A DNA stretch of 64,000 bases from a virus. The stretch is from positions 1 through 64,000 of IMG/VR virus record IMGVR_UViG_3300026557_000003, one strand, 5' to 3'. Of this stretch, positions 5,328 to 54,562 are shown piece after piece. The number at the start of each line of letters is the position of its first letter. The first letter of the stretch is position 1. The notes beneath the pieces were generated by a model, which worked only from the letters and a program-made list of their open reading frames with translations, searched no databases and was not told where the DNA came from. A program made the position numbers and the translations under genes.

Positions 5328-5996
5328 CTACCAACGACTGTAGGGACATTTTCGCGAAGGCAGCCTGGGTATCCTCGCCGCAATTTCTGGATTCCACCCG
5401 GTTCGTATTCTATTTCGAAACATTTCGAAATCTTCCTCTCTAACGTTAAAACGCTTGGCCCATTCCCGCACTCTCAGTGATTCCCCCGCGAATGTAAACG
5501 TTTTGGGCGGATTTGTTTTACGCTTGGTGTTGGTACCACTTAAAATTTCATCAAGACTCTTTCCTCGCTGAATATTCGTCGCGACAACGCTCCTCTTGAG
5601 TCCATGTCGATCACACCATTCAGCTAAACACATCTTTTCGCCATTGCATTCTACGATTCGATTACTCCGTTTATTCCGTGCGTTCTGGGTTCTTGTGGCC
5701 CATCGTAAATTCATCGGCCAACCATTTTCAAGGCACTCTGAACACTGGCCGCAACTATAGTGCCCGTCATTGTCTTTTCTGTCGATCTGCATTGAAGGGT
5801 CTGGTCGAGGACCTACCGTAGAGTAAAAAGCGCCAGCGGAAGAGAGCAAGTAACCACATATCTTGATTCCCCGACCGCCGTAATCTTTCCATTGTGGTTG
5901 GCGCGGATTCAAGCACCGCGTCTTGATGCGGTCCCAGGTTTTAAACTCGGGCGTACCACTCAATCCGTGAATCGTGTTAAAATGAAATTCAGCCAT
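5328..5996 (-). CDS. HNH-type homing endonuclease, YGGRGI family
   Basis: This 222-residue protein starts at MAEFHFNT, set by AAAGGAGA upstream; the longer frame to 6056 would include the leader hairpins. Residues 15-115 carry a phage HNH-like pattern: WDRIKTRCLNP, KDYGGRGIKIC, MQIDRKDNDGHY and NLRWATRTQNARN. Two C-terminal repeats (LAEWCDRHGLKRS and VREWAKRFNVREE) look like NUMOD-type DNA-binding modules. It should nick or cut DNA and move itself. It is antisense to neighbours and has its own promoter and structured leader. Confidence 0.8.
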   Translation of the reverse strand: MAEFHFNTIHGLSGTPEFKTWDRIKTRCLNPRQPQWKDYGGRGIKICGYLLSSAGAFYSTVGPRPDPSMQIDRKDNDGHYSCGQCSECLENGWPMNLRWATRTQNARNKRSNRIVECNGEKMCLAEWCDRHGLKRSVVATNIQRGKSLDEILSGTNTKRKTNPPKTFTFAGESLRVREWAKRFNVREEDFEMFRNRIRTGWNPEIAARIPRLPSRKCPYSRW

Positions 5997-6000
5997 TGAG

Positions 6001-6081
6001 TAAATCTCCTTTACAGATTTATTGAATTGGTAGATCGGCGGAAGGTGCTCAAACACCGCCGCCGATTGTCATATTGTATCA
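6001..6081 (-). promoter_or_regulatory. HNH gene promoter and two-hairpin leader (copy 1)
   Basis: The minus strand has an extended -10 TGA-TACAAT (6081-6073). Six bases later hairpin A begins: ATCGGCGG-GGTG paired with CACC-CCGCCGAT (6066-6034). The linker has CTACCAA. Hairpin B is TAAATCT, a 7-base loop, AGATTTA (6021-6001). The Shine-Dalgarno AAAGGAGA spans its loop and 3' arm, and the ATG is 4 bases beyond. Confidence 0.75.
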
Positions 6082-6102
6082 CGAATTTCGTTGCCTTATA
6101 AT
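6074..6102 (+). promoter_or_regulatory. rightward promoter for the 6111-6310 RNA
   Basis: TTGTAT (6074-6079), a 17-base spacer and TATAAT (6097-6102). It overlaps the -10 of the leftward HNH promoter, so the two may interfere. The first strong hairpin of the downstream RNA starts 8 bases after the -10. Confidence 0.65.
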
Positions 6103-6110
6103 AGCTTTTT

Positions 6111-6310
6111 CCTGGAGATGCGGACTGCCTAACCGCACCCAGGCTGAGGGGCGAAAGCTATCACTCTCTGGGTTCGCTGAATTGGCGAGATAATATAGCG
6201 CCGGGAATTAAACTTAACCGCAACCTATCTATTAAGACAGCCCTCGACGTTTTCTGCAGGGACCAACGCTAATGATTGCAACGCTTAGTTATTAACGTCG
6301 AGGCTGGTCC
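6111..6310 (+). ncRNA. predicted structured RNA with H-type pseudoknot
   Basis: No ORF fits this stretch but pairing is dense. Hairpin 1 is 6111-6143 (CCTGG/CCAGG and TGCGG/CCGCA). Hairpin 2 pairs GCTAT 6157-6161 with ATAGC 6195-6199 and holds an inner TCGC/GCGA stem at 6174-6188. A pseudoknot follows: 10-bp stem 6242-6251 with 6294-6303, and 6-bp stem 6260-6265 with 6305-6310, with a single base between stems. It has its own promoter upstream and lies just ahead of the virion operon. Possible roles are antitermination, a packaging RNA or a decoy; none is shown. I do not recognise a known family. Confidence 0.6.
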
Positions 6311-6317
6311 TTCGGTG

Positions 6318-6391
6318 TGCTATTATCTCTCAGGGGCGTATTCGTCGATCTTAAGTGTACCCTCTAACTATGAACGCTGATGGAGCGCCCC
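6318..6391 (+). promoter_or_regulatory. extended -10 promoter and 5' hairpin leader
   Basis: TGC-TATTAT (6318-6326) is followed 6 bases later by GGGGCG (6333-6338), which can pair with CGCCCC (6386-6391). After the hairpin come CAATCAA and then the GAGG ribosome site of the gene at 6417. The layout mirrors the HNH leaders but lacks a clear second hairpin. Confidence 0.5.
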
Positions 6392-6416
6392 GCAATCAAA
6401 CCCCAGCGAGGTATCG

Positions 6417-6602
6417 ATGGCTTCAATTTCTGTCTTGGTCCTTGATTTCATTCTGTCGGTTATCGTGTTTTTCGGCGGTGGTTGGGCTATCTATAAACGC
6501 GCTCCCGATGGCGTAACTGTAAGTGCAAGTAACGTAGCCGCACTGATCCTGATGATCCTGCTGTTTTTGCAGGTAATGAAGATAATCCAGACTTGTGGTT
6601 AG
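6417..6602 (+). CDS. small two-helix membrane protein
   Basis: The 61-residue protein has two hydrophobic segments, about residues 4-24 (VLVLDFILSVIVFFGGGW) and 38-56 (VAALILMILLFLQVM), with a short charged turn between them. It resembles small phage inner-membrane proteins such as class II holins, but its place ahead of the packaging genes rather than beside an endolysin argues for caution. GAGG precedes the ATG. Confidence 0.55.
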   Translation: MASISVLVLDFILSVIVFFGGGWAIYKRAPDGVTVSASNVAALILMILLFLQVMKIIQTCG

Positions 6603-6649
6603 CGAATTCTATTGAAATCACGCGCCAAATCGGGCAATATGGCGGCTGT

Positions 6650-7039
6650 ATGAGTAAATTTACCATCCACGCAACTTTCGAGGGCGAACACCCAAACGAG
6701 TTGCTTCACACTTTAAGCGGTCTGAATGCACTGATGGAAATACCCTGTGCGCTTGACCGCCTCACAACTGCAGTTAACGAGACGAAGGAGATTCTTATGG
6801 CACTGTCACCAAATATTCAGAAGTTAGTTGACGCATCGACCGCATTGTCATCGGCGGTCAGTACTTTCCTGGCCAATCAGGGTGGTGCGACTGCAACGGC
6901 CGTTCAAGCTGCAATCGACGCAGAGGACACTGATCCGGCAGTGGTGGACGCATTGACGAAACTACAAAACGACATCAAGATTCTTACGCCGGCAGTAGCA
7001 GCGACCACGGCGGCCGTTGCTCCAGTCCAGAACGGGTAA
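6650..7039 (+). CDS. hypothetical alanine-rich protein
   Basis: The protein has 129 residues from the ATG of MSKFTIHA; a TTG at 6593 is an alternative start. The N-terminal third is mixed, and from about residue 45 it is a long amphipathic alanine/threonine-rich helix that could form a coiled coil. It ends just before the terminator at 7069. No family recognised. Confidence 0.5.
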   Translation: MSKFTIHATFEGEHPNELLHTLSGLNALMEIPCALDRLTTAVNETKEILMALSPNIQKLVDASTALSSAVSTFLANQGGATATAVQAAIDAEDTDPAVVDALTKLQNDIKILTPAVAATTAAVAPVQNG

Positions 7040-7068
7040 CAAGTTCGTTCGTGAGGTAACTCCTGCTC

Positions 7069-7096
7069 GCCCCGCGATTTGCGGGGCTTTTTCTTT
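7069..7096 (+). terminator. intrinsic terminator
   Basis: GCCCCGC (7069-7075), a 5-base loop GATTT and GCGGGGC (7081-7087) are followed at once by TTTTTCTTT. The stem is perfect and all G-C. It closes the small operon 6417-7039 and isolates the virion promoter that follows. Confidence 0.9.
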
Positions 7097-7102
7097 GAAC
7101 TG

Positions 7103-7178
7103 TGTTATAGTGCCGTCACGCGCGCGATTCGAGTTGCTCCTGTTGACTAACTTTGCTATGAAAATCGAGTCGCGCGCG
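7103..7178 (+). promoter_or_regulatory. virion-operon promoter with long 5' hairpin
   Basis: TGT-TATAGT (7103-7111) is an extended -10. Seven bases later a hairpin begins: 7119-7132 (CG CGCGCGATTCGA) pairs with 7165-7178 over 14 positions including one G-U, around a 32-base loop. The GGA of a weak ribosome site abuts the 3' arm, 8 bases before the ATG at 7187. The whole leader is one hairpin. Confidence 0.65.
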
Positions 7179-7186
7179 GAAAATCT

Positions 7187-7834
7187 ATGGCAAATCCATT
7201 CACGGTCCATCTAAACGGAAGCGGAAAAGTCGCAACCGGCGCTACGGTCGCTCAAAAGGCGTTCATCGGTGAAGATTGCGTTGTACTTGACGCCTGTGAG
7301 GTCTACGGCGAGTCCGTAATCCGCAAGGGTAGTCAACTATCCGGTGCGTGCAGGGTCTTTGGCGGCGCAGATATTCAGAAATCGCGGCTACACGGCTCAG
7401 TGATTGTGGCCGGCGAGAAGGCTGCAGTTATAAATTCCCTCTTAATTGGCGATATCCTAGTCGCTGACAGTGCCTCGGTTCATAGCTGCGATTTGCGCTG
7501 TGGACCTGGGCAAATAATCAGAATCACTGAAAACGCGCAACTGATGGGAGTTTTGATCTATGGACCGCTGACCGTCAAGGGTGATGCAAAGGTCAGCAAT
7601 TGCGAGCTGTATCCGTCGACCGATATCGTTGAAGGCGAATGGACGAGGCCGCCAAGGGTTGTGCGATCGGTATTCCAATTTAACCTAGTCGAATCAATCA
7701 ACGATAGGATTGTCATCGGCTGTCAGGTTCACTCTCTTGATGTTTGGAAGAAACTCGATCCGAACCGATGGGCGCAATTAGGATTCTCACCTGAAGAACT
7801 AGCCGAATATTCAAGACTCATCAGCGAGTGGTAG
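7187..7834 (+). CDS. hexapeptide-repeat (left-handed beta-helix) protein
   Basis: The 215-residue protein is made of successive short hexad-like turns (for example FIGEDCVVLDACEVYGES, VIRKGSQLSG, SVIVAGEKAAV) over residues 15-150, as in left-handed beta-helix proteins. No acyltransferase active-site histidine pattern is clear, so a structural rather than enzymatic role is likely. Its stop is followed at once by the ATG of the large terminase, so the two are translationally coupled. Virion or packaging accessory role is inferred. Confidence 0.5.
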   Translation: MANPFTVHLNGSGKVATGATVAQKAFIGEDCVVLDACEVYGESVIRKGSQLSGACRVFGGADIQKSRLHGSVIVAGEKAAVINSLLIGDILVADSASVHSCDLRCGPGQIIRITENAQLMGVLIYGPLTVKGDAKVSNCELYPSTDIVEGEWTRPPRVVRSVFQFNLVESINDRIVIGCQVHSLDVWKKLDPNRWAQLGFSPEELAEYSRLISEW

Positions 7835-9916
7835 ATGGCAACAGACGACCTTCGCTCCATTATCGTCGGCCTGGTCGACCAATTCAAGGCTGCGGATCAG
7901 GCTGTTGATCTCTACAAAAGCCTGGAATCCCGCGAAAAAGGCGAAACCTATCTCAGCAGATTAGACGACGCGCTCGCCCGCTGTGCCAATTGTGAGATTC
8001 TTATTGATCTGGCGCAGTCAAAGATTCAACCGCTAATCGACCGCGCAACCAATGACATCGAGCGTCAGGCCCGAGAATATCAGCGTGATTTAATTGGCTG
8101 GCAGCTTCACAGGGCGGCCGAGAGTGCTCAAGAACGCATCGCTCATCTTGCGAGAATCGTCACCCCAGAAGATCAGGCGGCCGAAAAAGAACTCTGCAGA
8201 AAAGACACAAAATACTGGTTCAGATATTACGCATGGTCAACCGACCCAAGACCCGATGCGCCGTTGTCGGTGATGCCGACCGTTCCGTTTCCGTTTCAGG
8301 ATAACTACATCGATTGGTTGGAGTGCACGACATTCGAAGAGCACTCATCCGGACTGGTTGAGAAATCCCGCGATATGGGAGCTACGGTGATCTGGATCGA
8401 ATGGAACGTGAAACACTGGCTGTTTACCGAAGGCTTTTCCTCGTTGCTATCATCGGCGACCGAAGATCTGGTCGACTCGAAGCAGGACCCAGATACCTTA
8501 TTCGAAAAGACGCGGTTTCAGATTCGGATGCTTCCAAAATGGATGCTTCCGGTTGGTTTTGATCCAAACCGACATATGCCGTATATGAATATCGCGAATC
8601 CTGAGAATGGATCAGTTATCACGGGTCAAGCTCCCACTCAGAATATCGGTCGCCAACGTCGACGAACCGTCGCGCTCTGCGATGAATTCGCAAGCTGGCC
8701 GTTTGGCGGATACACGCAACATACAGCAATGTCTCAAACCGTCCGTTGTATGTTCAAGGTCTCATCAGTCAAAGGCAGGCTCAACAAATTCGCTGAAGAG
8801 CGTCACGCTGGTGGTACAAACGTTTTTACGATGGATTGGCGAGAACACCCTTGGAAAGATGATCGATGGTTCAACTCTCTCGATCACGGATACTGCGGTC
8901 CTCGAATGACGACGCAGGAAGTTGCGCAGGAGGTTTCCCGCGATTACGATGCCTCGCAGCCCGGCAAAGTTTTCACCAAGTACAATGAACTCCTGAACGT
9001 CGTCACCTGGAAAGAATTCGCGAGCGTCGCCGTTGGCGCAGTCAATCCAGACACTAATCTTTATCGAATCCCGACTAATTGGTTTTGTGGTCGGGGCCTT
9101 GACTGGGGAGCAACTGACGAGAATCAACACCCAGCAGTATGTATCTGGATCGCCATCGCGGCTGAGAATGCACATCCATCAATTCGAGGCTGCATATTCG
9201 TCTATCGTGAACGGATGTGGAGCGGCGGCCCGACTGTCGGAGAAGTTGCCCGCGAGATTAAAACCGTCGAAGCCGTTGATCACGAGACCGAAAGGATGGT
9301 TCAAAAACGGATCAGTCACGAGCGATCGACGGAACAAAACACGTTTCTGCGCGAACATCGAATGCCCTGGGAAAAATGGCAGACCACCGACAATTGGGGG
9401 CTGTCTGTCATTAATGAATTCCTCGAACCTCGAAAATGGCAGCATCCGTTCAGAGCGGAGCTGTACGGTTCACCGCGTCTGTATCTGATTGTCGCTGATG
9501 ATCAGGGTCAGATGGAAAAGGATCATTCAGGACACGGTGCCGTCGTCGCTGCTCGCGATCAGGACGGACTAAAACGATTAAGAGCCGAGATGCCCGCGTA
9601 TCACTATCCGACAACCGAAGCCGGTAAACCTGTCGGAAAGATGAAGCCTGAGAAGTTCTTCGATGATGCGGTCGATGCATTGCGCGGTGTTGCTGGTCAC
9701 TTCTTCGGGCCAAGCAAAAAGCTATCTGATAACGAACGGATGGAGGCATCATTCCCTGAGCCTTTACGCGCCGAAACCCTGACCCGTGAAATCCGGGATG
9801 GCACAATCGAGGACCTGAACGTCAGGATTATGCAGCGAATCGAAGCGCGCCAGAAATACAAAGAACAGAATACGGGGCGTCGTGGTATACTCGACCGCTA
9901 TAGAGGTGGAAGATGA
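7835..9916 (+). CDS. terL: terminase large subunit
   Basis: The 693-residue protein has the two terminase domains. The ATPase domain carries a Walker A-like EKSRDMGAT at residues 176-184 and a Walker B LCDE at 281-284. The nuclease domain has GLDWGATDE near 422 and the conserved DDAVDALRG near 609. It powers DNA translocation into the prohead and cuts concatemers. About 110 extra N-terminal residues are helical and may hold the small subunit. It starts directly after the beta-helix gene and overlaps the next gene by ATGA. Confidence 0.9.
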   Translation: MATDDLRSIIVGLVDQFKAADQAVDLYKSLESREKGETYLSRLDDALARCANCEILIDLAQSKIQPLIDRATNDIERQAREYQRDLIGWQLHRAAESAQERIAHLARIVTPEDQAAEKELCRKDTKYWFRYYAWSTDPRPDAPLSVMPTVPFPFQDNYIDWLECTTFEEHSSGLVEKSRDMGATVIWIEWNVKHWLFTEGFSSLLSSATEDLVDSKQDPDTLFEKTRFQIRMLPKWMLPVGFDPNRHMPYMNIANPENGSVITGQAPTQNIGRQRRRTVALCDEFASWPFGGYTQHTAMSQTVRCMFKVSSVKGRLNKFAEERHAGGTNVFTMDWREHPWKDDRWFNSLDHGYCGPRMTTQEVAQEVSRDYDASQPGKVFTKYNELLNVVTWKEFASVAVGAVNPDTNLYRIPTNWFCGRGLDWGATDENQHPAVCIWIAIAAENAHPSIRGCIFVYRERMWSGGPTVGEVAREIKTVEAVDHETERMVQKRISHERSTEQNTFLREHRMPWEKWQTTDNWGLSVINEFLEPRKWQHPFRAELYGSPRLYLIVADDQGQMEKDHSGHGAVVAARDQDGLKRLRAEMPAYHYPTTEAGKPVGKMKPEKFFDDAVDALRGVAGHFFGPSKKLSDNERMEASFPEPLRAETLTREIRDGTIEDLNVRIMQRIEARQKYKEQNTGRRGILDRYRGGR
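9883..9891 (+). promoter_or_regulatory. extended -10 element inside terL 3' end
   Basis: TGG-TATACT lies 21 bases before the ATG at 9913, followed by a GAGGTGGAAG ribosome site. It matches the TGN-TATAAT-like form used by other promoters in this genome. It could boost the accessory genes 9913-12709. Confidence 0.4.
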
Positions 9917-10440
9917 GCCGAGAAAAGCAAATAGAGATGGCGAAGGACTTTTGCATTAGCAAAGGAGTCAATCCCGATTTAGTTGATAAGCTGTACGAGG
10001 GTCCTTTCGGTATCGCGGCCGATCAGCCGGAATCATTATTCAGTGCCGAGTTGAAATCAAAGTTTAAGCTACGATCTCAGTTGCCAAAACACGTTGAGGC
10101 CGGTATGCGAATGCTGGTCATTACCGGCGACGTGATCGACATGCACGTCAAGGGCGAGACCGTCGCGAATATGCTTGACCTAATCATTCCACAATTGCCA
10201 GCGGATGTTTTCCTCTGCGATGACCATTACAGCGGCGGGGTCATCTATCCGTTGCCGATGTTCAACGCGGATGGGAGTAGCGGATATTGCGATGCTTACT
10301 GTCTCATTCTCGGAAGTCTTCAATGGAAGAATCCCGGCCCCGGAAAGATGATTCCGATGCTGGACGTGTTTTTCACCAAAGACCCGACAACCTGGGCCGT
10401 AACCGCGAAGGTCGTTGAACGCACTGAAAACGTGAAATAA
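9913..10440 (+). CDS. hypothetical protein downstream of terminase
   Basis: The 175-residue protein has no recognised domain. The N-terminal 60 residues are helical and charged; the remainder is beta-rich with a CDAYC pair near residue 128. It overlaps terL and its own successor by a few bases, so it belongs to the packaging operon. It is expressed with virion genes but need not be structural. Confidence 0.55.
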   Translation: MSREKQIEMAKDFCISKGVNPDLVDKLYEGPFGIAADQPESLFSAELKSKFKLRSQLPKHVEAGMRMLVITGDVIDMHVKGETVANMLDLIIPQLPADVFLCDDHYSGGVIYPLPMFNADGSSGYCDAYCLILGSLQWKNPGPGKMIPMLDVFFTKDPTTWAVTAKVVERTENVK

Positions 10441-10646
10441 TGAAAGTATCAAGGCTAATCGAAATTCTCAAACAGTGCGATCAGGAATTGGAGATTTGGA
10501 GTCATTCAAATAATCACACGGCCGATGAAGATATAAAAGTCCTTATTGTCTCGGATGGCGGCCAAGATTCTTATGTCATCATAGGCAATCCCGAGGATGC
10601 GAGACTGCACGACAACGGCCTGAGGATTCAGAAAAGATATAAATAA
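10440..10646 (+). CDS. small phage protein (MKVSxLIExLK type)
   Basis: The 68-residue protein begins MKVSRLIEILKQCDQEL, a pattern seen in many short phage proteins of unknown function, followed by a beta segment KVLIVSDGG. Start and stop overlap neighbours by one codon or less, a sign of translational coupling. No function is assigned. Confidence 0.5.
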   Translation: MKVSRLIEILKQCDQELEIWSHSNNHTADEDIKVLIVSDGGQDSYVIIGNPEDARLHDNGLRIQKRYK

Positions 10647-10846
10647 TGGAAGAGCGGCTTATCCCTAGTTACGAGGCTCAAATCGCGCATCTGGTCGCGC
10701 GTGGAGTGCTCTATCCGACGAAAGAGGGCAACTGGCCTGTGATGATCTTCCACGATTTCCATTGTCCGTTCTTTCGCGGAAATCAATGCGTTTGTGATGT
10801 GTTGATTGCGCCGATTGCTTATGTTCACAGGGAGAGAATTGTATGA
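10646..10846 (+). CDS. hypothetical protein (66 aa)
   Basis: The protein contains a CPFF and CVCD segment near residues 40-51 that might bind a metal together with H37/H40. It is flanked on both sides by overlapping genes of the packaging operon. No family recognised. Confidence 0.45.
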   Translation: MEERLIPSYEAQIAHLVARGVLYPTKEGNWPVMIFHDFHCPFFRGNQCVCDVLIAPIAYVHRERIV

Positions 10847-11016
10847 GCCAAGCCGTTAAGATTATTCTTCCAGAACCGCCAGTGGGTGCAGATTCGTGGG
10901 ATGTTTACGCAACTCAAGTACTCTACGATTACTCGATATTCGCCAATCTGTCCGATAAAACTATCACCGCAAGTCACGAAGGCGGTTATTTCGATATTAG
11001 TCACCTTGAAGATTGA
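10843..11016 (+). CDS. 57-residue hypothetical protein
   Basis: The ATG overlaps the previous TGA as ATGA after a GGGAGAGA site. The frame runs from MSQAVKIILPEPPVG to ISHLED. It is acidic with no recognised motif. Included because of the coupled start and coding-like composition. Confidence 0.5.
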   Translation: MSQAVKIILPEPPVGADSWDVYATQVLYDYSIFANLSDKTITASHEGGYFDISHLED

Positions 11017-11096
11017 AACCGGTTTAATCGGCGATTGTACGAGCATCGTAGTTTCCAGAACGCGAATCGACTATTAAACTATGCGGAGTGCGAACT

Positions 11097-25094: not shown

Positions 25095-25670
25095 ATGTCC
25101 GAAGATTCGCAATTCGATATTCCGGAATACATCAAGAAACGCTTTGAAGGCGACGAACTGAAGGCCGTGCAAGAGGAACAGGCGCGGTTGCGGTCGAGAT
25201 ATGGCTACGACGCCAATAGAATCCGGACAATGAGCCGGGTTCAACGAGATTTTGAACACAATGAGCGGGAGGTCTTGCTTGCGTCGGAGATGCTTGGCGT
25301 TCTATTAAAGGAATCGCCTTTGCCAGAAGCTGAGATTACTTTTCAGCGACGCCGATTGTCGGAGGCGCTCTGGCGAACGGGAAAACTCGAAGAAGCTCTG
25401 ATCGCCGCTGCGGACAAAGCGCAATTCGACAAGGTTCTAGCAATTAAGGCGGCGGTTGAATCGGACGATCTCGAAGTCTGCAACTGTGAGGACGCTAAAC
25501 ACAAGGGTCTAAATATCACACGATACGCGACAAAGACCCATATCTTTTCACCGAAACACGGCAAGATAATGCCGATGAAGCAGTGCTCGATATGCGGCCA
25601 TTTGAATTGCTGTGGGAATATTCCGGCTAGGCCAAAAGACTCAATCCTTCGCCAAGGAGTCGTTAGATAA
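25095..25670 (+). CDS. hypothetical protein with C-terminal zinc cluster
   Basis: The 191-residue protein is helical and charged for 130 residues, then has CNCE, CSICGH and CCG cysteines (residues 133-178), probably one or two zinc sites. Its end overlaps the 3' end of the convergent HNH gene by 8 bases. Virion association is inferred from location only. Confidence 0.5.
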
Positions 25671-26196
25671 CATGAGCCCAAGCCAATCTTCTTATAACTC
25701 TACTGATCACGCTGGCGTCCATTCCGACTATGCCCGCGATGTCCACACATTTCATTCCGGTTGCCGCCATAGCTCTAACTTCTCGGACTTTTTCCGGACA
25801 CAGTTTCGCCTGTGGAAGTGCGGTACCCATGCCGCGTTTATGTCCCGGGAGGTCAAATGCCCCGCGTTTTTTCTTGGCGCAATCGACAGAATTATCTCTG
25901 GGCGTACCAAGAAAGAGATGCGCCGGGTTCACGCATCTAGGCACATCGCATCGGTGAAGAACGCAAAGAGAAGGCCAGCACTGATGTTCCAGAAAATACG
26001 AGAGACGACTTGCGATAACGCCTCGCCTACCAATCATCATGCCTCCGTATTCCATTCGACCAGAAATGCGTTTGGCACCGGTCCATCGCCAACAGTCGCC
26101 TTGCGGGCCATAGCCGGGTGTTTTGTCAACCTTTGCCCAAAATCTATCAATATGCTTTTCGGTTACGATGGGTTGTTGTATGTTAACAGCGGTCAT
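25663..26196 (-). CDS. HNH endonuclease (HNH_3 type)
   Basis: The 177-residue protein has an N-terminal [18 protein letters not shown] motif, the HNH core [20 protein letters not shown] (residues 79-98), and a C-terminal helix-turn-helix ([19 protein letters not shown]). It should bind a specific site and nick or cut DNA, promoting its own spread. It fits exactly between two rightward virion genes in antisense orientation and has its own promoter and leader. Confidence 0.85.
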
Positions 26197-26201
26197 AGTG
26201 C

Positions 26202-26300
26202 GAATCTCCTTATTAGATTCCTGCCTTGGCTAGGACTGTTGAGGTATTTCCGTATCTCGGCAGTCCGTTTCTATTATAGACATTATCGTATTACCGTCAA
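26202..26300 (-). promoter_or_regulatory. HNH gene promoter and two-hairpin leader (copy 2)
   Basis: The minus strand has TTGACG (26300-26295), 16 bases, TATAAT (26278-26273). Six bases later hairpin A pairs GGACTG with CAGTCC (26266-26233), with an inner GAG/CTC stem. The linker holds TAGCCAA. Hairpin B is GAATC, a 9-base loop with AAGGA, GATTC (26220-26202). The ATG follows 5 bases on. Confidence 0.75.
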
Positions 26301-29877: not shown

Positions 29878-30387
29878 TTAAATATGCGTCCAGTTTTCTC
29901 CGCGAAGAATATGTGCAATCTCACTTCTACTCAAATTGAATTTGATCGCAAGCTGGCGTCTCGACAGCAGGCCTCCAAGGCTACGTATTTCGCGCACCGC
30001 CTCTTCTGTTGTCTTTGCCATTCCATGATTAGAACCTCTACGAAGTCTATTTCTAACTCTCGCGTCTTCTGCGTTCTCAGCCGCCGTTCCTTCGCGAAGA
30101 TGATCTGGATTAACGCAATTTTTAATATCACAGCCATGGAGCACGTACAATTCAGGCCATTTATTGTAAGCAATGCGATAAGAAGCTACGTGCGCTCCTA
30201 CCTGGACTTTTCGAAATTGAATCTTGCCGGGTTGAATCCCGGCCTTCATTTTTGGACGGCGATTGCCAGTTTTCCATTTCCAGCAAGTGCCCCACGGGCC
30301 GTATCCGGTGGACTTATCAACCTTTGTCCAGAAATAGTTAATATCCTTGTCGGTGAGTTGAAGGCGGTTTATATTATCAGTAGCCAT
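29878..30387 (-). CDS. HNH endonuclease (HNH_3 type)
   Basis: The start is at MATDN, because the Shine-Dalgarno GAAAGGTAGA lies just upstream; the frame extends 7 codons further but would cover that site. The 169 residues carry FWTKVDKSTGYGPWGTCW, the HNH core LYVLHGCDIKNCVNPDHL, and a C-terminal HTH (RRQLAIKFNLSRSEIAHIL) ending WTHI. It lies antisense between virion genes, 4 bases after the upstream stop. Confidence 0.85.
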   Translation of the reverse strand: MATDNINRLQLTDKDINYFWTKVDKSTGYGPWGTCWKWKTGNRRPKMKAGIQPGKIQFRKVQVGAHVASYRIAYNKWPELYVLHGCDIKNCVNPDHLREGTAAENAEDARVRNRLRRGSNHGMAKTTEEAVREIRSLGGLLSRRQLAIKFNLSRSEIAHILRGENWTHI

Positions 30388-30390
30388 TTC

Positions 30391-30467
30391 TTGAAATCTA
30401 CCTTTCAATTTTGGTTAGAGGCTTCGGGTTGCAGAAACAACTCGGGGCCTCATCGTGCATTATAGCA
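30391..30467 (-). promoter_or_regulatory. HNH gene promoter and two-hairpin leader (copy 3)
   Basis: The minus strand has the extended -10 TGC-TATAAT (30467-30459). Seven bases later hairpin A pairs 30451-30438 with 30431-30418 (11 of 14 positions). The linker is TAACCAA. Hairpin B is TTGAAA, loop GGTAGA, TTTCAA (30408-30391), with the Shine-Dalgarno in the loop and the ATG 3 bases later. Confidence 0.75.
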
Positions 30468-30482: not shown

Positions 30483-31076
30483 TTGGGCTCGGGCAATGAT
30501 CAAGCAAAACAATTAGCGAACAAAGCCGATACTTCATCGGTAACGACGCTTGACAACTCGACCTTTAATCCGCTTGCCAAAGCTGGAATTGACAGGGCTG
30601 GCACTGATCTTCAGAATATTCAGGCCGGTAAGTTCGGGAGCCTGCCACTTGTTCAGGCGGTCAATCAGGCGGCGAACAGGTTGAAATCGTGGAATCCGGC
30701 CCCAATGGGTGATGCTGCGCTGGCCGCCGGTGCGAGCGGGCAAGGTGGGTATGCGACCGCAGAGGACTCCTATCGTCGGAGATTACAGGACCGGGCCGTT
30801 AGCGACCTGATGCCACAGGCGGTGGAGGCTGAGCGGAATTATTCGAGTTCCATATTATACCCTGGGGCGCAGGGTGAATCGGCTTATGATTTAGCCAAGG
30901 CTGCTGGCTACGCGGGCGCGGGAGGCCAAGCTGCAAATTTGTACAATCTGGAATCGAATAACGGGTTCTGGAATCATCTGACGAACTCACTTGGCCAGAG
31001 TCTCGGCCAAAGTCTTGGCGGCGTCAGTGGTAGCTACAATAGCGGAAACGGCCAGTTCACGGGTGGCTTTGGTTAA
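30483..31076 (+). CDS. virion-associated protein, TTG start
   Basis: AAGGAG lies 6 bases before a TTG at 30483, giving 197 residues (GSGNDQAKQLANK onward). The protein is A/G/N/Q-rich, mostly helical, ending in repeated LGQSLGQSLGG. This resembles small internal ejection proteins of podoviruses. The longer frame from 30411 runs into the HNH leader and is rejected. Role inferred. Confidence 0.55.
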   Translation: MGSGNDQAKQLANKADTSSVTTLDNSTFNPLAKAGIDRAGTDLQNIQAGKFGSLPLVQAVNQAANRLKSWNPAPMGDAALAAGASGQGGYATAEDSYRRRLQDRAVSDLMPQAVEAERNYSSSILYPGAQGESAYDLAKAAGYAGAGGQAANLYNLESNNGFWNHLTNSLGQSLGQSLGGVSGSYNSGNGQFTGGFG

Positions 31077-31780
31077 AGAATATGCTTCCACGTTTCACGT
31101 CTAACAACATTTCGGATGGTGGCGGGGCTTACACCGTATCGCTTCCCCTGTGCGTAAAGAGAGCATATCGCTGCGTTCTGGCGTATCTCTCTAACATCCT
31201 TTTCAGTCAGACGCGCAAAGCAATGCAATTCGCCCCTCGCTGGCCTTTGCTGGCTTGCTGCATTGGTGGCGTCTTCGACATGTTTCCAGGTCTGACATTT
31301 AATGATCCTCTTTGCAGTACAGGCTGCAACGCTGAACCTACGACCTATTTCTTCGTAACTCAATCGCGGAAAAAGCGAACGAAGTTCTGTTATTTCGACC
31401 TCTGTAAGTGTTGTGTTGTAATTATCTTCTCCCCGTATCCCGCGGCCCTTCGCTGCCATATCAGCACTATTCTCAGCGTTCGTGCCCTTGAAAAGGTGTG
31501 CGGGATTAACGCAGGAACGGTTATCGCAGTGATGGCAAACGAGCAATTTTGGCCATTCGTGAAAATGAACCATAAAGGAGAATCGGTGGGCTCCTACTAT
31601 TCTCCTTGGAATGCCTCGTTGTATGATCGCCAGACTTCCGTATCCTTGATTGCCAATAGTGCCAGTCCACGACCAGCAATCTCCGTCAGGACCAAAACCC
31701 GGCGTTTTGTCAACTCTTTCCCAGAACATTTTAAGATGCTTGTCGGTAAACACCGGTGGGTTTATATTAGTCGAAGCCAT
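31073..31780 (-). CDS. HNH endonuclease with duplicated C-terminal HTH
   Basis: The start is at MASTN after GAAAGGTGA. The 235 residues contain FWERVDKTPGFGPDGDCW, the HNH core [18 protein letters not shown] (about 82-100), then two tandem HTH-like repeats, each beginning with an R/T-L-T-E element and ending W-K-H. The duplication is unlike the other HNH genes and may lengthen the recognised site. It overlaps the upstream virion gene by 4 bases, antisense. Confidence 0.85.
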   Translation of the reverse strand: MASTNINPPVFTDKHLKMFWERVDKTPGFGPDGDCWSWTGTIGNQGYGSLAIIQRGIPRRIVGAHRFSFMVHFHEWPKLLVCHHCDNRSCVNPAHLFKGTNAENSADMAAKGRGIRGEDNYNTTLTEVEITELRSLFPRLSYEEIGRRFSVAACTAKRIIKCQTWKHVEDATNAASQQRPARGELHCFARLTEKDVREIRQNAAICSLYAQGKRYGVSPATIRNVVRRETWKHIL

Positions 31781-31783
31781 ATT

Positions 31784-31860
31784 CTGAATCACCTTTCAGT
31801 TTGTTGGTTAGAGCCGCTGCGGACATTTAGCGTGTCCGCGCGGCTTGCTGTATTTTAACA
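31784..31860 (-). promoter_or_regulatory. HNH gene promoter and two-hairpin leader (copy 4)
   Basis: The minus strand has the extended -10 TGT-TAAAAT (31860-31852). Seven bases later hairpin A begins: GCCGC-GCGGACA with TGTCCGC-GCGGC (31844-31813), 12 bp and one bulge. The linker is TAACCAA. Hairpin B is CTGAA, loop AGGTGA, TTCAG (31799-31784). The ATG follows 3 bases later. Confidence 0.8.
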
Positions 31861-47551: not shown

Positions 47552-47562
47552 GGAGCAATCAA

Positions 47563-48429: not shown

Positions 48430-48445
48430 TTTTAAGGAGCAACCA

Positions 48446-49585: not shown

Positions 49586-49822
49586 CGAGATTCGTAAGGG
49601 CGCAGCAGTAGTCCCTGTCGCTGTGGTACGTCGCCTTTGGGCGTAGAGCAAGGCCAAAGTAGGAGTCGGGCAACCGATATACCGAGAAGGTCTCAGGGAT
49701 GAACACGAGTGTGAAGCGCTGCAAGGCAAACGCCGCTGATGCCCACCATAAATGAAATGGCGTGACTTTGCCGGTGGGAGAGAAACCGGCCTAATGTTGA
49801 GGGTCAACGGAAAGGCGCAGCA
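49586..49822 (+). other. 237-base gene-free stretch with dense pairing
   Basis: No gene is seen. Stems include CTTTGG/CCAAAG (49635-49659), TCGG-GCAA-CCGA near 49667-49678 with a GNRA loop, CCCACC/GGTGGG (49742-49778) and GCCGGT/ACCGGC (49770-49790). The last two share bases and would be alternatives. It may be a leader or noncoding RNA for the exonuclease gene. Confidence 0.4.
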
Positions 49823-50503
49823 ATGAATTTTAATCCACACGAACAAGACTCTGAAACTCAAATCGCAATGGCAGAAGCTAGAAAGACAATGCTAAAGACG
49901 AACAAAATTACTGTTTTCGATATTGAGATTATCAAAGCAATTCCTGACCGCAATCAGGAGAATGACCCGACTATTAAATATTGCGGCGGCTGGCAGGATC
50001 ACGCCGGAATGGGTATCTCAGTTATCGGAGCATATTCATACGCAGATGACCGTTATCGGGTTTTCCTCAAAGACAACTTTGGGCTATTCGAGGACCTGTT
50101 GCACGAATCAGATATTGTTGTGAGCTTCAACGGTCTAGCATTCGATAACCGCGTATTGGAAGCCTGTGGCATCAACCCGCCAGACGCGACAACCTACGAT
50201 CTGTTGGTCGAAACCTGGGCTGCCGCTGGACTCGCGCCGAAGTTCAATTATAAGACACACGGCGGCTTTGGTCTTGACGCCGTATGTTCTGCGAATTTCG
50301 ATCTGAACAAGACTGGACACGGCGCACTTGCCCCCGTCCAATGGCAACAAGGCAAATACGGACACGTCATTGATTACTGTCTCGAAGACGTAAGATTAAC
50401 CAAAAAACTGTTCGACCTGGCCACGGCGGGGCCAATCAAGAACCCGAAATCCGCAATTGGTGGAAGTTATTTGATGTTGCGGGATCCATTTATCGTGAAA
50501 TGA
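49823..50503 (+). CDS. DEDD-type 3'-5' exonuclease-like protein
   Basis: The 226-residue protein has the first exonuclease motif FDIE (D33, E35), a middle NGLAFDNRVLE motif and a C-terminal YCLEDVRLTKKL, matching RNase H-fold DEDD exonucleases of the YprB/DnaQ kind. It may proofread, process recombination intermediates or degrade RNA. GGAAAGG lies upstream of the ATG. The HNH cassette follows immediately. Confidence 0.7.
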   Translation: MNFNPHEQDSETQIAMAEARKTMLKTNKITVFDIEIIKAIPDRNQENDPTIKYCGGWQDHAGMGISVIGAYSYADDRYRVFLKDNFGLFEDLLHESDIVVSFNGLAFDNRVLEACGINPPDATTYDLLVETWAAAGLAPKFNYKTHGGFGLDAVCSANFDLNKTGHGALAPVQWQQGKYGHVIDYCLEDVRLTKKLFDLATAGPIKNPKSAIGGSYLMLRDPFIVK

Positions 50504-50522
50504 TCGATTATATGCTTACTTA

Positions 50523-50606
50523 TGCTAGAATAAGGTCGAGTCGAAAAGACGTTACCAGCGCCCTTTCGACTCTCACCTATACCACTCGTAACATAAGGAG
50601 CACGAG
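50523..50606 (+). promoter_or_regulatory. HNH gene promoter and two-hairpin leader (copy 5)
   Basis: The extended -10 TGC-TAGAAT (50523-50531) is followed after 6 bases by hairpin A: GAGTCGAAA 50538-50546 with TTTCGACTC 50564-50572, 9 bp perfect. The linker holds TCACCTA. Hairpin B is CTCGT (50585-50589), a 12-base loop with AAGGAG, ACGAG (50602-50606). The ATG lies 4 bases later. Confidence 0.8.
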
Positions 50607-50610
50607 CAAT

Positions 50611-51183
50611 ATGGCTGTCGATAAATATACCATACTCGCCAATCTACCATCTTCCGTGGTTGATCGTTTCTGGAAAAAGGTCGATAAACAGAATGGACCG
50701 ATCCTTATGCACTGTTCTCGTCTCGGCCGTTGCTGGCAGTGGTTCGGAGACAGGAATCAGGGCGGCTACGGTAGTATGAGGCTTGGTTCTTCTTCTTGGG
50801 CGGCACGTGCCCGTGCGCATATTATTTCATGTGCCATCGACAGAAACGGAATACCAGAAGGCTCTCTGGTCCTGCATAAATGTGATAACCCCTCATGCGT
50901 AAGGCCTAGTCATTTATGGCCCGGCTCGCAACGCGAAAACGTGGCAGACATGATGGCAAAGAAGCGGGACCGCCGCCCTGGTTCCAGATCAGGCGTTGCT
51001 GTGAATTATTCTCGCGGCGAGGATCGTCACAATGCTCATTGCACGGAAGCGATCGTGCTGGCCATGCGAGCGGATTATATTCCCGGCGTTTTTGGCTGCA
51101 ACAAGATAGCAAAAAAATATAACGTAGTATGCCGAGATGTCGTTGCTCGTATTATCAGGAGAGAAATATGGAAGCATATTTAG
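50611..51183 (+). CDS. HNH endonuclease (HNH_3 type)
   Basis: The start is at MAVDKYTIL, 4 bases after the leader stem; the upstream frame to 50500 would cover the whole leader. The 190 residues have FWKKVDKQNGP, the HNH core LVLHKCDNPSCVRPSHLW and a C-terminal HTH ending W-K-H-I. This copy is codirectional with its neighbours, unlike those in the virion block. Confidence 0.85.
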   Translation: MAVDKYTILANLPSSVVDRFWKKVDKQNGPILMHCSRLGRCWQWFGDRNQGGYGSMRLGSSSWAARARAHIISCAIDRNGIPEGSLVLHKCDNPSCVRPSHLWPGSQRENVADMMAKKRDRRPGSRSGVAVNYSRGEDRHNAHCTEAIVLAMRADYIPGVFGCNKIAKKYNVVCRDVVARIIRREIWKHI

Positions 51184-51340
51184 ACGCACGTCTACTACGC
51201 CGTCACCATTCCACCGGGGCACGACGCTAAGGCAGATCGAATCCGCGCGCTAGGAATGGTGCAGATATTCAGGTGCGAGCGCGTGGCGAAGGTCAGGGAT
51301 GTTGACCGGGAGTTACACCGGATGGTTCGTCGAGGTTGAT
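51184..51340. other. gene-free stretch with two stems
   Basis: CACCATTCC (51204-51212) pairs with GGAATGGTG (51253-51261), 9 bp perfect, and GGTCA (51291-51295) pairs with TGACC (51303-51307). No ORF fits. It runs into the tRNA-like segment at 51344 and may be part of one structured RNA or a decayed tRNA cluster. Confidence 0.35.
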
Positions 51341-51343
51341 ATG

Positions 51344-51429
51344 GCACGGGTGGCTGTAATGTAACAGTGTCGCGGTGCACCTTAAAAACAGGAGCGGAAA
51401 TCTCAGTTCGAGTCTGAGCCCGTGCCCCA
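51344..51429 (+). tRNA. tRNA-like element, anticodon arm degenerate
   Basis: A perfect acceptor stem (GCACGGG 51344-51350 with CCCGTGC 51419-51425), discriminator C and encoded CCA, a T-arm (CTCAG, TTCGAGT, CTGAG) and a D-like stem (GCTG/CAGT) are present. The 33 bases between D- and T-arms do not give a canonical anticodon arm: the best stem, CACCT/AGGAG, has a mismatch and its loop lacks U33. It is probably a decayed tRNA or a tRNA mimic, so no amino acid is assigned. Confidence 0.5.
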
Positions 51430-51445
51430 AAAGGAACGGATAAAT

Positions 51446-51649
51446 ATGCCTGAGTCACGGCGCGAAGATGAGTACATGGAGTAGTTCGGCGACGATGAAG
51501 AACACGGCGATCCTTTCTGTTATACCTGCTACGGACGCGGATTTGTAGTTAGATGCGTCGATGATATTTGCCACGGCAGCGACGAAGGCTGCATTCACGG
51601 CGACGGAAATGTACCGTGCCCGGACTGTAGCAGGAGGGAATGGGATTAA
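51446..51649 (+). pseudogene. zinc-finger gene with in-frame TAG
   Basis: The frame opens MPESRREDEYME after GGAACGG, meets TAG at 51482-51484, and continues without break for 54 codons to TAA. The downstream part holds CYTCYGRG, CVDDIC, C-IHGDG and CPDC, matching a DnaJ-like phage zinc-finger family, so it was clearly coding. No alternative start lies between the TAG and the first cysteine. Either a nonsense mutation or amber readthrough applies. The last codons overlap the next ATG. Confidence 0.6.
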
Positions 51650-52476
51650 TGGCTGAAACGAAAATCGAATGGGCGACATATACATTTAATCCGTGGTTGG
51701 GTTGTACCAAGGTGTCACCCGCCTGCACGCATTGCTATGCCGAATCGTGGGCAAAACGGAGCGGGCTGGTTCAGTGGGGTGATAATCCAAGGCGCAAAAC
51801 AACAGATCAATATTGGCGTCAGCCTTTGAAATGGAACGAGTTGGCTAAAAGTGCGACTGTGAGGCCACGTGTTTTCTGCGCATCATTAGCTGACGTATTT
51901 GAGACAAATGAAGAGGTCGCCCCTTGGCGCAAAGAGTTTTTCAATCTGATTAGTAAGACTCCGAACCTTGATTGGCTTCTACTAACAAAGCGCCCTGAAA
52001 ATATTCGCGCAATGCTACCGAATGATTGGGGTATGGGGTATCCGAATATCTGGCTTGGTGCGACAGTTGAGAATCAGGAATATGCAGATAAGCGAATTCC
52101 GAACTTATTAGAGATCGACGCAAAAGTTTACTTTGTTTCCTGTGAGCCCCTATTGGGCGAGTTGAATTTAGAGCAATATCTTTATAATCGCTACCAGATG
52201 GGTGGAGCGCGACCGATGTATAATCAGGTCAATTGGGTTATTTGTGGTGGTGAGAGCGGTCCTGGCGCACGCCCGATGCACCCGGCTTGGGCTCGGTCAC
52301 TCCAAGCTCAATGCGAGGCCGCTACTGTTCCTTTCCATTTTAAGCAATGGGGCGAATTTAGCCCGAACGTCTTAGGTATTAACGATTCGGTCCCACCTTC
52401 GAGAATAGGCAAGAAAGCTGCGGGCCGAATACTCGACGGTCGAACGTGGGATGAATTGCCAGCGGTAGCCAAATGA
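51649..52476 (+). CDS. DUF5131 (Gp37/Gp68) family protein
   Basis: The start is at MAETKIEW, overlapping the previous stop (TAATG), with AGGAGGG upstream. The 275-residue protein opens with the family signature WNPW-like NPWLGCTKVSPACTHCYAESWAKR, whose three cysteines resemble a radical-SAM cluster motif, then has VFCASLADVFE and WVICGGESGPGARPM. The family is common in phages and mobile elements; its reaction is not established to my knowledge. Confidence 0.8.
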   Translation: MAETKIEWATYTFNPWLGCTKVSPACTHCYAESWAKRSGLVQWGDNPRRKTTDQYWRQPLKWNELAKSATVRPRVFCASLADVFETNEEVAPWRKEFFNLISKTPNLDWLLLTKRPENIRAMLPNDWGMGYPNIWLGATVENQEYADKRIPNLLEIDAKVYFVSCEPLLGELNLEQYLYNRYQMGGARPMYNQVNWVICGGESGPGARPMHPAWARSLQAQCEAATVPFHFKQWGEFSPNVLGINDSVPPSRIGKKAAGRILDGRTWDELPAVAK

Positions 52477-52601
52477 TCACAATCCTACTCGCTCTTATCG
52501 CCATCGCCGCAATCTTCAAAATCAGGAAGGTACTTTGCCGCGATACCCGAATGAGCAGCACCACGGCCCAATGGATCGACGAAGATTGTGAGCCATTATG
52601 A
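52473..52601 (+). CDS. 42-residue membrane peptide
   Basis: ATGA overlap with the previous gene. Residues 1-17 (MITILLALIAIAAIFKI) form one membrane helix, then a basic and acidic tail. Coupled to both neighbours by overlaps. Function unknown. Confidence 0.45.
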   Translation: MITILLALIAIAAIFKIRKVLCRDTRMSSTTAQWIDEDCEPL

Positions 52602-52777
52602 ATCCTGTAACGAGTCAATGGAAACCGCCACGCTGGTCGCCATTTCGTCAGATTCGCGATTGGTTTGATAGGCGAACGATCAATAAGGCGCTGTCACGCC
52701 CTAGGCCGCATCGTGATTATGGCAACGCGCCTTTTGAAGTGCCGGTGCTAACACAGGAGAAGATCGATGCCCGATAA
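52598..52777 (+). CDS. 59-residue basic hypothetical protein
   Basis: ATGA overlap with the previous gene gives MNPVTSQWKPPRW to KIDAR. The protein is rich in R, P and W. No domain recognised. Its end overlaps the next start by 11 bases. Confidence 0.45.
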   Translation: MNPVTSQWKPPRWSPFRQIRDWFDRRTINKALSRPRPHRDYGNAPFEVPVLTQEKIDAR

Positions 52778-53168
52778 TAAACCCACAACCGAAGTCTCGA
52801 TTACCAATGACGCGGCCGAATGGCTGGAGTCGAGGAACGAACTGGTGGTTAGTCAACTGGACGCTGCCGATCTTGCCGATTGTTTTTACGATTCGCAGCC
52901 TATACTTGACGGGCTAACCGCTGCATATAAACGTGGCCGGGATGATGCGAATGCGCTGACCGCCAAGGACGCAAAAGAGAAAGATCGGGAAGTCAGCCAG
53001 ATGGCGGCTCAGGTGCAGGAACTAAAGGCCACGCTTGACACGATGAAATACTGGATGGCTATCGACAAATGCGACTGTGATACCGAGCGCAAGGACGGCC
53101 ACACGGTTAGAATGGACTACCCCAAATCGCTTGAACTGGATTGGCATCTCGAAGATTGCTATTATTAA
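52767..53168 (+). CDS. hypothetical protein with coiled coil
   Basis: The 133-residue protein has an acidic N-terminus, a coiled coil near residues 65-98 (AKEKDREVSQMAAQVQEL) and a C-terminal CDCD and C motif. CAGGAG lies upstream of the ATG. No family recognised. Confidence 0.5.
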   Translation: MPDNKPTTEVSITNDAAEWLESRNELVVSQLDAADLADCFYDSQPILDGLTAAYKRGRDDANALTAKDAKEKDREVSQMAAQVQELKATLDTMKYWMAIDKCDCDTERKDGHTVRMDYPKSLELDWHLEDCYY

Positions 53169-53202
53169 TACCGCCTGATGCAGTTGAACGCAGGGTGAAA
53201 CG

Positions 53203-53334
53203 ATGATCAAATGGCTCATCTGCTACTTTTTCCATCGCGAATATTGGCGATATTCTCCCCGGTGGATGGACACGGTTGACTATGGCTGCCACAAGCCCGG
53301 ATGCGGGCGTAGGTGGGAAAAGAAAGTAGGCTAA
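53203..53334 (+). CDS. 43-residue aromatic/cysteine protein
   Basis: The frame reads MIKWLICYFF to WEKKVG, rich in W/Y/F and with CHKPGC, possibly metal-binding. CAGGGTG precedes the ATG. The next gene starts 2 bases after its stop. Function unknown. Confidence 0.45.
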   Translation: MIKWLICYFFHREYWRYSPRWMDTVDYGCHKPGCGRRWEKKVG

Positions 53335-53335
53335 A

Positions 53336-53743
53336 GTGGGCTGGACCGATCAGGAATTCGAAGATTTCCGCGCGAAGTCGAAATTGTTTGCCAGCGCCAA
53401 GCCCCCAAAGCGCGGCCATAGATCGAAGGAAAAGGAAACCCTCGGGCGATACCTAATGACCCATGGAACGACCTGGGCGCTCGAACATCGATTTCACCCC
53501 GTCCGGCTGTGGCGATTTGACTGGGCGATTACTTCGTTGAAGATCGCTGTTGAGTTTGAGGGTGGTGTATTCATTCCCAAGGGTGGCGGCCATACAAAAG
53601 GAATGGATTACTCGAAAGATTGTGAGAAATACTCAGAAGCAGCAATTCTCGGCTGGCTGGTCGTTAGATGTACAGCGCCGATGATTCGAAGCGGGCTGGC
53701 GTTTGACTTGATCGAGCGGGCTATTAAGGCCAGACAGAAGTAA
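53336..53743 (+). CDS. PD-(D/E)XK-type nuclease-like protein
   Basis: A GTG start follows the previous stop. In the 135-residue protein, RFDWAI and IAVEFEGG (about residues 63-80) look like the D and E-x-G part of a Vsr/DUF559-type restriction-fold nuclease, and VVRCTAP forms the next strand. It might act as a repair endonuclease or junction resolvase. The assignment rests on motif pattern only. Confidence 0.5.
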   Translation: MGWTDQEFEDFRAKSKLFASAKPPKRGHRSKEKETLGRYLMTHGTTWALEHRFHPVRLWRFDWAITSLKIAVEFEGGVFIPKGGGHTKGMDYSKDCEKYSEAAILGWLVVRCTAPMIRSGLAFDLIERAIKARQK

Positions 53744-53833
53744 TCCCGCGTGTAGATCAACTGAGCACGGCAACCCCGCGCGGGCCGCGATCTGCTTCTG
53801 AGGGAGATAACTAATTGATTTTATGGACATTTA

Positions 53834-53919
53834 TGTTAACATGGATGCGAATCAGGGAGATGTTTTGAGCGTCTCCCTGGCTCTAATCAAATCGACGAAC
53901 CTGTAAGGAGATTCGCATC
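53834..53919 (+). promoter_or_regulatory. HNH gene promoter and structured leader (copy 6)
   Basis: The extended -10 TGT-TAACAT (53834-53842) is followed by GATGCGAATC (53844-53853), hairpin A AGGGAGA/TCTCCCT (53854-53878), a TAATCAA linker, AAGGAG, and GATTCGCATC (53910-53919), which pairs perfectly with 53844-53853. Here the arm beside the start codon pairs with the 5' end and encloses hairpin A. The ATG follows one base later. Confidence 0.7.
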
Positions 53920-53920
53920 A

Positions 53921-54562
53921 ATGACTGAGAACAAATCTAACATAATTCCTGAGGAACAAGAAGAGTGGCGATGGGTCAAGGGTTTTGAAGGTAGATATGA
54001 AGTTTCGAATATGGGGCACGTCAGATCATACGTGAAACATGGATACGGGATTGATCTTTCTCCTGTGCCGATGCGTATTCTTTGTGGTGGCCTCACTAGT
54101 GGGTATATTCAGGTTGATTTGTCAAAGGGTGATCGAGTACGTCACCCTTTTCGCATACATGTTCTAGTTGCTGCTGCTTTTCTAGGGGATTGTCCCGATA
54201 GGCATCAGGTCAATCATAAAAATTGGAATAAGACGGACAATCGCCTCGATAATCTTGAGTATCTTACATCCCAGGGCAACACCTTGCATAGTAGGCCGCG
54301 AAGAAGAGGCCAGTGTGGAACACGGATCGGAAGCGCAAAACTAAAAGAGAGCGATATTCCGGTCATTAAGTCGCTACGTGCTCAAGGTTTTACGTATAAA
54401 ATGATCGGTGATCGGTTCTTGGTATCAGAATCAGCAATTGGCCATATTGTTTTAGGCCGCCACTGGAAGCACGTACGAGAAGATGGCAAAATAGTTCTTC
54501 CCACTGGGCGTACCGTCCGGGGAGAAAGTCGCGCGAAGAAACCGGAAGCGAGGGTAGCTTGA
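53921..54562 (+). CDS. NUMOD4-HNH homing endonuclease
   Basis: The 213-residue protein begins with a NUMOD4-like domain (EEWRWVKGFEGRYEVSNMGHVRS), then the HNH core IHVLVAAAF, HQVNHKNWNKTDNRLDNLEYLT, as in I-HmuI-type enzymes, and a C-terminal HTH (TYKMIGDRFLVSESAIGHIV). It should nick DNA site-specifically. It is codirectional with its neighbours. Confidence 0.85.
   Translation: MTENKSNIIPEEQEEWRWVKGFEGRYEVSNMGHVRSYVKHGYGIDLSPVPMRILCGGLTSGYIQVDLSKGDRVRHPFRIHVLVAAAFLGDCPDRHQVNHKNWNKTDNRLDNLEYLTSQGNTLHSRPRRRGQCGTRIGSAKLKESDIPVIKSLRAQGFTYKMIGDRFLVSESAIGHIVLGRHWKHVREDGKIVLPTGRTVRGESRAKKPEARVA

Follow-up and report, generated by a model that had tools for sequence, protein, structure and literature searches.

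A SymR-like antisense RNA gene is predicted to overlap the start of each of six HNH endonuclease genes in a viral genome

Introduction

The symE/SymR pair of E. coli is a type I toxin-antitoxin system, in which the antisense RNA SymR is encoded opposite the start of symE and acts mostly at the level of translation; silent mutation established that its -10 element drives the RNA that represses translation, two silent changes, CATTCT to CACTCC, being enough to abolish SymR (Kawano et al. 2007, PMC1891008). In the homing endonuclease genes of T4-type phages (I-TevI, segB, mobE), hairpins that sequester the ribosome-binding site keep expression low or timed (PMC2988022). The present analysis concerns a structured unit found at the 5' end of six free-standing HNH endonuclease genes in the first 64 kb (positions 1 to 64,000, hereafter the window) of a 69,197-bp IMG/VR virus record, IMGVR_UViG_3300026557_000003; as argued below, each of these genes most likely carries a SymR-like cis-antisense RNA gene that overlaps its translation start, a prediction made from sequence.

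To our knowledge, the control of free-standing homing endonucleases is understood mainly through sense-strand hairpins and autorepression in T4-like phages. Antisense RNAs pairing with ribosome sites of mobile-element genes include FinP (of traJ), which has two stem-loops, and IS10 RNA-OUT; both differ from the HNH unit in their sequences and in their partners, FinO and Hfq. The R1162-like plasmid antisense RNA (RF00043), which controls plasmid replication, is likewise about 75 nucleotides (nt) long. Open-access literature searches, with most subscription journals outside their scope, returned no described antisense RNA of an HNH or homing endonuclease.

The 5' unit of the six HNH genes

The window, 20 kb of which gave no megablast match among named phages, contains HNH genes of at least three types, four of the six being homologous. 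They are named here after their starts: 5996, of the phrog_3377 type (5328-5996, minus strand; phrog_3377 at an expectation value, E, of 5e-42); 26196 (25663-26196, minus; Pfam HNH_3 at E 5e-5, slightly below the curated cut-off, and above it in a further search); 30387 (29878-30387, minus), 31780 (31073-31780, minus) and 50611 (50611-51183, plus), all three matching Pfam HNH_3; and 53921 (53921-54562, plus), which matches both Pfam HNH_3 and NUMOD4. An earlier note on this DNA had claimed a common 5' unit for all six genes, and the unit was indeed found at every one of these starts. It begins with a sense -10 element, which is TGN-extended in five copies (TACAAT at 6073-6078, TATAAT at 30459-30464 and TAAAAT at 31852-31857 on the minus strand, TAGAAT at 50526-50531 and TAACAT at 53837-53842 on the plus strand), 26196 having instead an upstream TTGACG (with TATAAT at 26273-26278, minus strand). 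Hairpin A starts about 6-7 nt past this element in five copies and about 10 nt past it in 53921; a linker (CTACCAA, TAGCCAA, CTAACCAA in two copies, TCACCTA and CTAATCAA) and hairpin B, which contains the Shine-Dalgarno sequence, separate it from the ATG, placed a few nt 3' of hairpin B. In 53921 hairpin B is imperfect, with GAA/TTC, a C-A mismatch and then CT/AG.

The covariation of the stems described in the note was also recovered, the pairing being far above chance at 96% in the curated set versus 54% after shuffling, a contrast that is partly circular since the stems of this set were placed by us. A covariance model of 20 curated sense leaders (R1), run without filters, found five of the HNH leaders in the 64 kb at E 1e-9 to 9e-3 (E-values of this model and of R2, below, are rough, from a shortened calibration), and gave 9.2 bits to 53921, which was outside its training set. 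Credible R1 matches in the 64 kb lay solely at HNH leaders, and the scan revealed the unit at none of the non-HNH genes of this phage.

The strand of the structure and its promoter

A G-U pair on one strand is an A-C on the other, which cannot pair; stems were thus located, in a set of 100 non-redundant copies, by a score that gives both the same weight; sequence anchors alone had yielded most of this set. The stems held 155 sense A-C mismatches (antisense G-U wobbles) versus 19 sense G-U pairs, while the same method gave ratios of 441:398 at random places in the same contigs and of 563:283 in shuffled leaders (p 5e-12 for 155:19 against the latter). The antisense strand had the more stable fold in 94 of 95 copies, random segments splitting 152 to 141, and each hairpin was seen in 97% of the 100 copies, compared with 22% (hairpin A) and 38% (hairpin B) of shuffled leaders. 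Because of the wobble asymmetry and of the fold energies the antisense strand is assigned: the conserved structure is that of an antisense RNA, and a structure of the HNH mRNA is not supported.

On this opposite strand, each of the six window genes has a TANNNT -10 element inside the open reading frame (ORF) that ends 6-7 nt ahead of the codon 2 complement. Such an element was scored in 38 of 42 leader-positive genes, gathered independently of the antisense promoter, as opposed to 1 of 55 leaderless HNH genes (Fisher p 2e-22; some near-duplicates among the 42 inflate the sample size, not the contrast); the count becomes 39 of 42 with 26196, which carries TATGTT at spacing 6 and was first scored negative because the end of the model was shifted. 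Among anchor hits lacking the leader 3 of 46 scored positive (one of the three, L217, probably being a genuine member), as did 30 of 223 other ORFs that begin ATGGC and have a Shine-Dalgarno sequence. The antisense -10 is TGN-extended in 26 copies. Since spacings 6 and 7 fall into different codon frames, an amino-acid constraint does not explain the signal; rather, the embedded promoter would dictate the first codons, so that the proteins begin MA-, many of them with an N-terminal MAxx(D/H/N)S motif.

These data bear directly on a rival explanation along the lines of the earlier note, in which the HNH mRNA itself has a structured leader, hairpin A guarding its 5' end and hairpin B exposing or moderating the ribosome site, with no antisense RNA at all. 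Such a leader would agree with the sense -10, itself well supported close upstream of hairpin A (TANNNT at 7.1 versus 1.1 per position), with the Shine-Dalgarno sequence in hairpin B and with hairpins that start near the predicted sense start in the six copies; it is contradicted by the wobble counts and fold energies, both of which speak for the other strand, and it leaves the ORF-internal antisense -10 unexplained, so that we consider it unlikely. What stands of the note is the covarying structured unit, HNH-specific in this phage, and what is not supported is the strand.

Equally unlikely, in our opinion, is that the convergent promoters work through transcriptional interference by antisense transcription, RNA pairing being unimportant. 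The sense and antisense -10 elements do oppose each other at a distance of about 90 nt, as this explanation would have it; however, interference needs no conserved RNA structure, whereas stems, linker and 5'-end pairing are conserved, and the translational mode of action reported for SymR (PMC1891008) also counts against it. With promoters facing each other, interference may nevertheless add to the effect of a pairing antisense RNA.

Architecture of the predicted antisense RNA

The predicted RNA, of about 75 nt, starts with AGCCAU, followed by a stem of 5-7 bp whose loop is complementary to the Shine-Dalgarno sequence, a conserved linker, UUGGUUAG, and a longer, terminator-like hairpin, after which (past hairpin A) the antisense strand is enriched in U, with 4.1 in 8 nt versus 2.0 expected. 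The UGGUU of the linker pairs with the AGCCA of the RNA 5' end, and a compensatory double change, AGUCA/UGAUU, occurs in 53921, in SymR and in two other leaders (L216 and L438). In an antisense alignment of 57 sequences, 98.1% of the cells are paired versus 57% after shuffling, two-sided changes affect 11 of 11 pairs, and pairing falls to about 44% if the partner is shifted by one column; the stems of this alignment were placed by us, so that the independent evidence consists of the strand asymmetry, the fold energies and the hairpin frequencies relative to shuffled leaders. Equal-length padded alignments were used, MAFFT alone misaligning hairpin B. A pairing of the CCA of the sense linker with the mRNA start codon was considered and dropped, the same bases pairing better in the antisense fold.

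The antisense covariance model built from the 57 sequences (R2), one of which is a Klebsiella symE copy, gave exactly six matches on the 69-kb record, each at an HNH start, with 31780 and 53921 outside the model. On the plus strand, the predicted antisense RNA gene opposite 5996 spans 5978-6075, with its -10 (TAAAAT) at 5978-5983, the predicted start at 5991, the first stem-loop (SL1, hairpin B) at 6001-6021, the second (SL2, hairpin A) at 6034-6066 and a tail to about 6075 (26.7 bits, E 3.9e-5); that opposite 26196 spans 26179-26275 (-10 TATGTT at 26179-26184, predicted start 26191, SL1 26202-26220, SL2 26233-26266; 22.5 bits); that opposite 30387 spans 30369-30460 (-10 TATATT at about 30370-30375, predicted start 30382, SL1 about 30391-30408, SL2 about 30418-30451; 35.9 bits, E 1.8e-7); and that opposite 31780 spans 31762-31855 (-10 TATATT at about 31763-31768, predicted start 31775, SL1 31784-31799, SL2 31812-31845; 21.8 bits). 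The remaining two lie on the minus strand and have TGN-extended -10 elements: opposite 50611 the predicted gene spans 50529-50629 (-10 TATATT at 50624-50629, predicted start 50616, SL1 50585-50606, SL2 50538-50572; 32.6 bits), and opposite 53921 it spans 53840-53939 (-10 TAGATT at 53934-53939, predicted start 53926, SL1 about 53896-53915, SL2 about 53853-53879; 18.7 bits, E 0.004). Predicted duplexes of the six RNAs have energies of -130 to -161 kcal/mol with their own leaders and of -30 to -67 kcal/mol with the other leaders, consistent with self-specific control.

Comparison with SymR and other regulators

In MG1655, symE starts at 4579840 and symR begins at 4579835, which places the SymR start opposite the third base of codon 2. 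R2 detects SymR end to end, at 19.3 bits, with a TAGAAT at spacing 7 that overlaps the site of the published silent changes. SymR, at about 77 nt, thus shares with the predicted RNAs the ORF-internal -10, the start opposite codon 2, a 5' end that pairs with a UGRUUAG linker, a loop facing the Shine-Dalgarno sequence and a terminal hairpin. All six window copies start opposite codon 2 with a -10 in the ORF at spacing 6-7, and the 5'-end/linker pairing, the anti-Shine-Dalgarno stem-loop and the terminal hairpin are present as well, 50611 deviating in the first of these three. The difference lies in the targets, which in the window are phage HNH endonuclease genes and not symE.

The following points weigh against a SymR-like antisense RNA at these genes. 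In 50611, the 5'-end/linker pairing amounts to just 3 of 5 in the tested register; the U-tracts of the window copies are weak, being overlapped by the sense -10, which makes the 3' end the weakest part of the predicted RNA; the antisense -35 signal is weak overall; and the Rfam symR family (RF01809) has no match in the window at its gathering score, and a search of five window leader loci with E allowed to reach 10 found none either, for which reason the units are called SymR-like here and are not filed as symR members. No Rfam family at all matched the window at gathering score, in keeping with the earlier note, which recognised no described family; the resemblance to the described symE/SymR pair takes away part of that statement.

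Below threshold, Rfam symR matches two leaders from outside the window (L322 and L324), which directed attention to the opposite strand. The R1162-like RNA gives weak sub-threshold matches on SymE-type leaders, while in the window it has no match, either at gathering score or, for five leader loci, with the E limit set at 10. The sub-threshold matches of RF00043 and RF01809 overlap on leaders L320, L322 and L324, which suggests that the two families may be related or mutually complementary.

Like the T4-type leaders, the unit is an RNA structure located at the ribosome site of homing endonuclease genes in phages; there, however, the hairpin belongs to the sense mRNA, and for I-TevI only to transcripts from further upstream, whereas here the structure fits the antisense strand. 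53921 alone has, in addition, an exact 10-bp complement, GATGCGAATC/GATTCGCATC (window 53843-53852 and 53910-53919); in transcripts that start ahead of the gene's own promoter, and only in these, it would mask the ribosome site, as in T4 I-TevI.

Distribution of the module

Searching phage and metagenome HNH genes, as the earlier note had proposed, uncovered the same unit in unrelated viral contigs; relatives were found by HNH protein searches and by a sequence pattern, and at least 120 viral contigs carry the module. A strong match, at a strict cut-off, is present in 32 of 274 Gammaproteobacterial genomes, where the downstream genes that were read include, judged by their sequences, SymE-like, RadC-like and ArdC-like genes and many small ORFs. 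A scan of 95 downstream genes gave 37 matches to Pfam HNH_3 and 12 to phrog_3377 (HNH counts are from Pfam and PHROGs, a regular expression having undercounted them), 3 to SymE, 2 to resolvases and 2 to Cpn10, with one each to GIY-YIG, RadC, Rha, KilAC and DnaN. The phage genes other than HNH that follow the module (L204, L206, L226, L241, L256, L362 and L370) include Cpn10-like, DnaN-like and helicase-like genes, serine recombinases and unknowns.

This range of genes also bears on the possibility that the stems are DNA palindromes, serving as operators for autorepression by the endonuclease or as mimics of homing sites. I-TevI and its relatives are able to bind their own promoter regions (PMC2988022), which lends this idea some appeal; yet the stems vary while their pairing is kept, no DNA site accounts for a G-U preference on one strand, and the unit also precedes non-nuclease genes, all of which makes it very improbable. 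Simple inheritance of a functionless leader, conceivable since the six genes are mobile and four of them homologous, can practically be dismissed, being contradicted by stems that diverge with pairing kept, by the covariation counts and their controls, and by the occurrence of the unit in unrelated phages and bacteria, where it precedes protein families that are themselves unrelated.

Within families of HNH genes the unit is recurrent and far from universal: a set of some 60 non-redundant relatives of HNH gene 31780 had it at four loci, twice in one of them, and among the NUMOD4-type relatives of 53921 no clear unit was found, one leader (L022) being borderline at 15 bits. None of ten named phages with HNH homologues, nor one record chosen for a weak BLASTN match, has the unit. 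When phages were searched by BLASTN with sense and consensus leaders, most matches were weak and attributable to chance, but the second of these searches pointed to Enterobacter phage vB_EclS_CobraSix, the one named phage in which the unit was found, at HNH gene PQD12_gp10 (40.6 bits). In this phage (NC_071003.1, about 7681-7738; L476), the annotated start of PQD12_gp10 falls within hairpin A, and the true start is probably codon 20, 19 codons downstream of the annotated one. Two copies are found in a Pusillimonas plasmid with phage genes.

In bacterial genomes, a stringent pattern retrieved eight loci, including a Klebsiella symE, a symE remnant and two Dyella loci with the same leader. Two Dyella genomes have 12 R2 matches each, and the copies read (L419, L420, L422, L423, L425, L426, L428 and L429) precede short, poorly conserved ORFs beginning MxxPDHTA; they look like a multicopy small RNA family with a dispensable protein.

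Two further observations lie outside this set. A different HNH gene, a relative of 53921 (L009, 1400-1485), has a -10 element and, after it, TGTGATCG/CGATCACA interlocked with GTATGC/GCATAC, which may form a pseudoknot; R1 gave no unit copy in that record, and R2 none at the locus. In the window, a cytosine methyltransferase of 578 residues (58973-60709, plus strand) matches with residues 1-576 positions 9-315 of the 327 in the phrog_363 profile, so that about 260 residues seem to be inserted; this resembles a case reported in a phage methylase, the ShiLan insertion with its hidden HNH (PMC11855218).

Proposed mechanism and significance

The position of the promoter, the structure with its strand and the equivalence to SymR are seen in the sequence; from them we infer transcription, repression and an initial burst, as follows. 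A promoter on the opposite strand, within the first HNH codons, would make an RNA some 75 nt long that begins opposite codon 2 and whose AGCCA end would pair with the UGGUU linker and enclose the anti-Shine-Dalgarno stem-loop, the terminator-like hairpin coming next. This RNA and the 5' end of the HNH mRNA, the latter made from the convergent promoter just upstream, would be complementary throughout, and, by analogy with SymR, the RNA most likely blocks translation of the endonuclease: pairing would prevent ribosome binding and keep endonuclease levels low to a degree that scales with the number of phage genomes, possibly after a short burst when the element enters a cell without antisense RNA. 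Because sense and antisense RNAs come from one DNA segment, the stems can drift freely while pairing is kept, and each copy would regulate only itself; an antisense RNA thus explains why the stems vary and still pair.

Taken together with the distribution described above, it seems to us somewhat better than an even chance that SymR belongs to a large superfamily, hitherto unrecognised, of portable antisense modules that selfish or accessory genes (homing endonucleases, SymE, recombinases, RadC, ArdC-like and others) have recruited in phages and Proteobacteria, and that in phages the module acts as a copy-number sensor, allowing a burst and then a self-specific shut-off. If so, SymR would no longer be an isolated case, and each element would be expected to have its own regulatory RNA, cross-talk between them being slight; for the homing endonucleases, an antisense switch at the start of each gene would represent a new principle of control.

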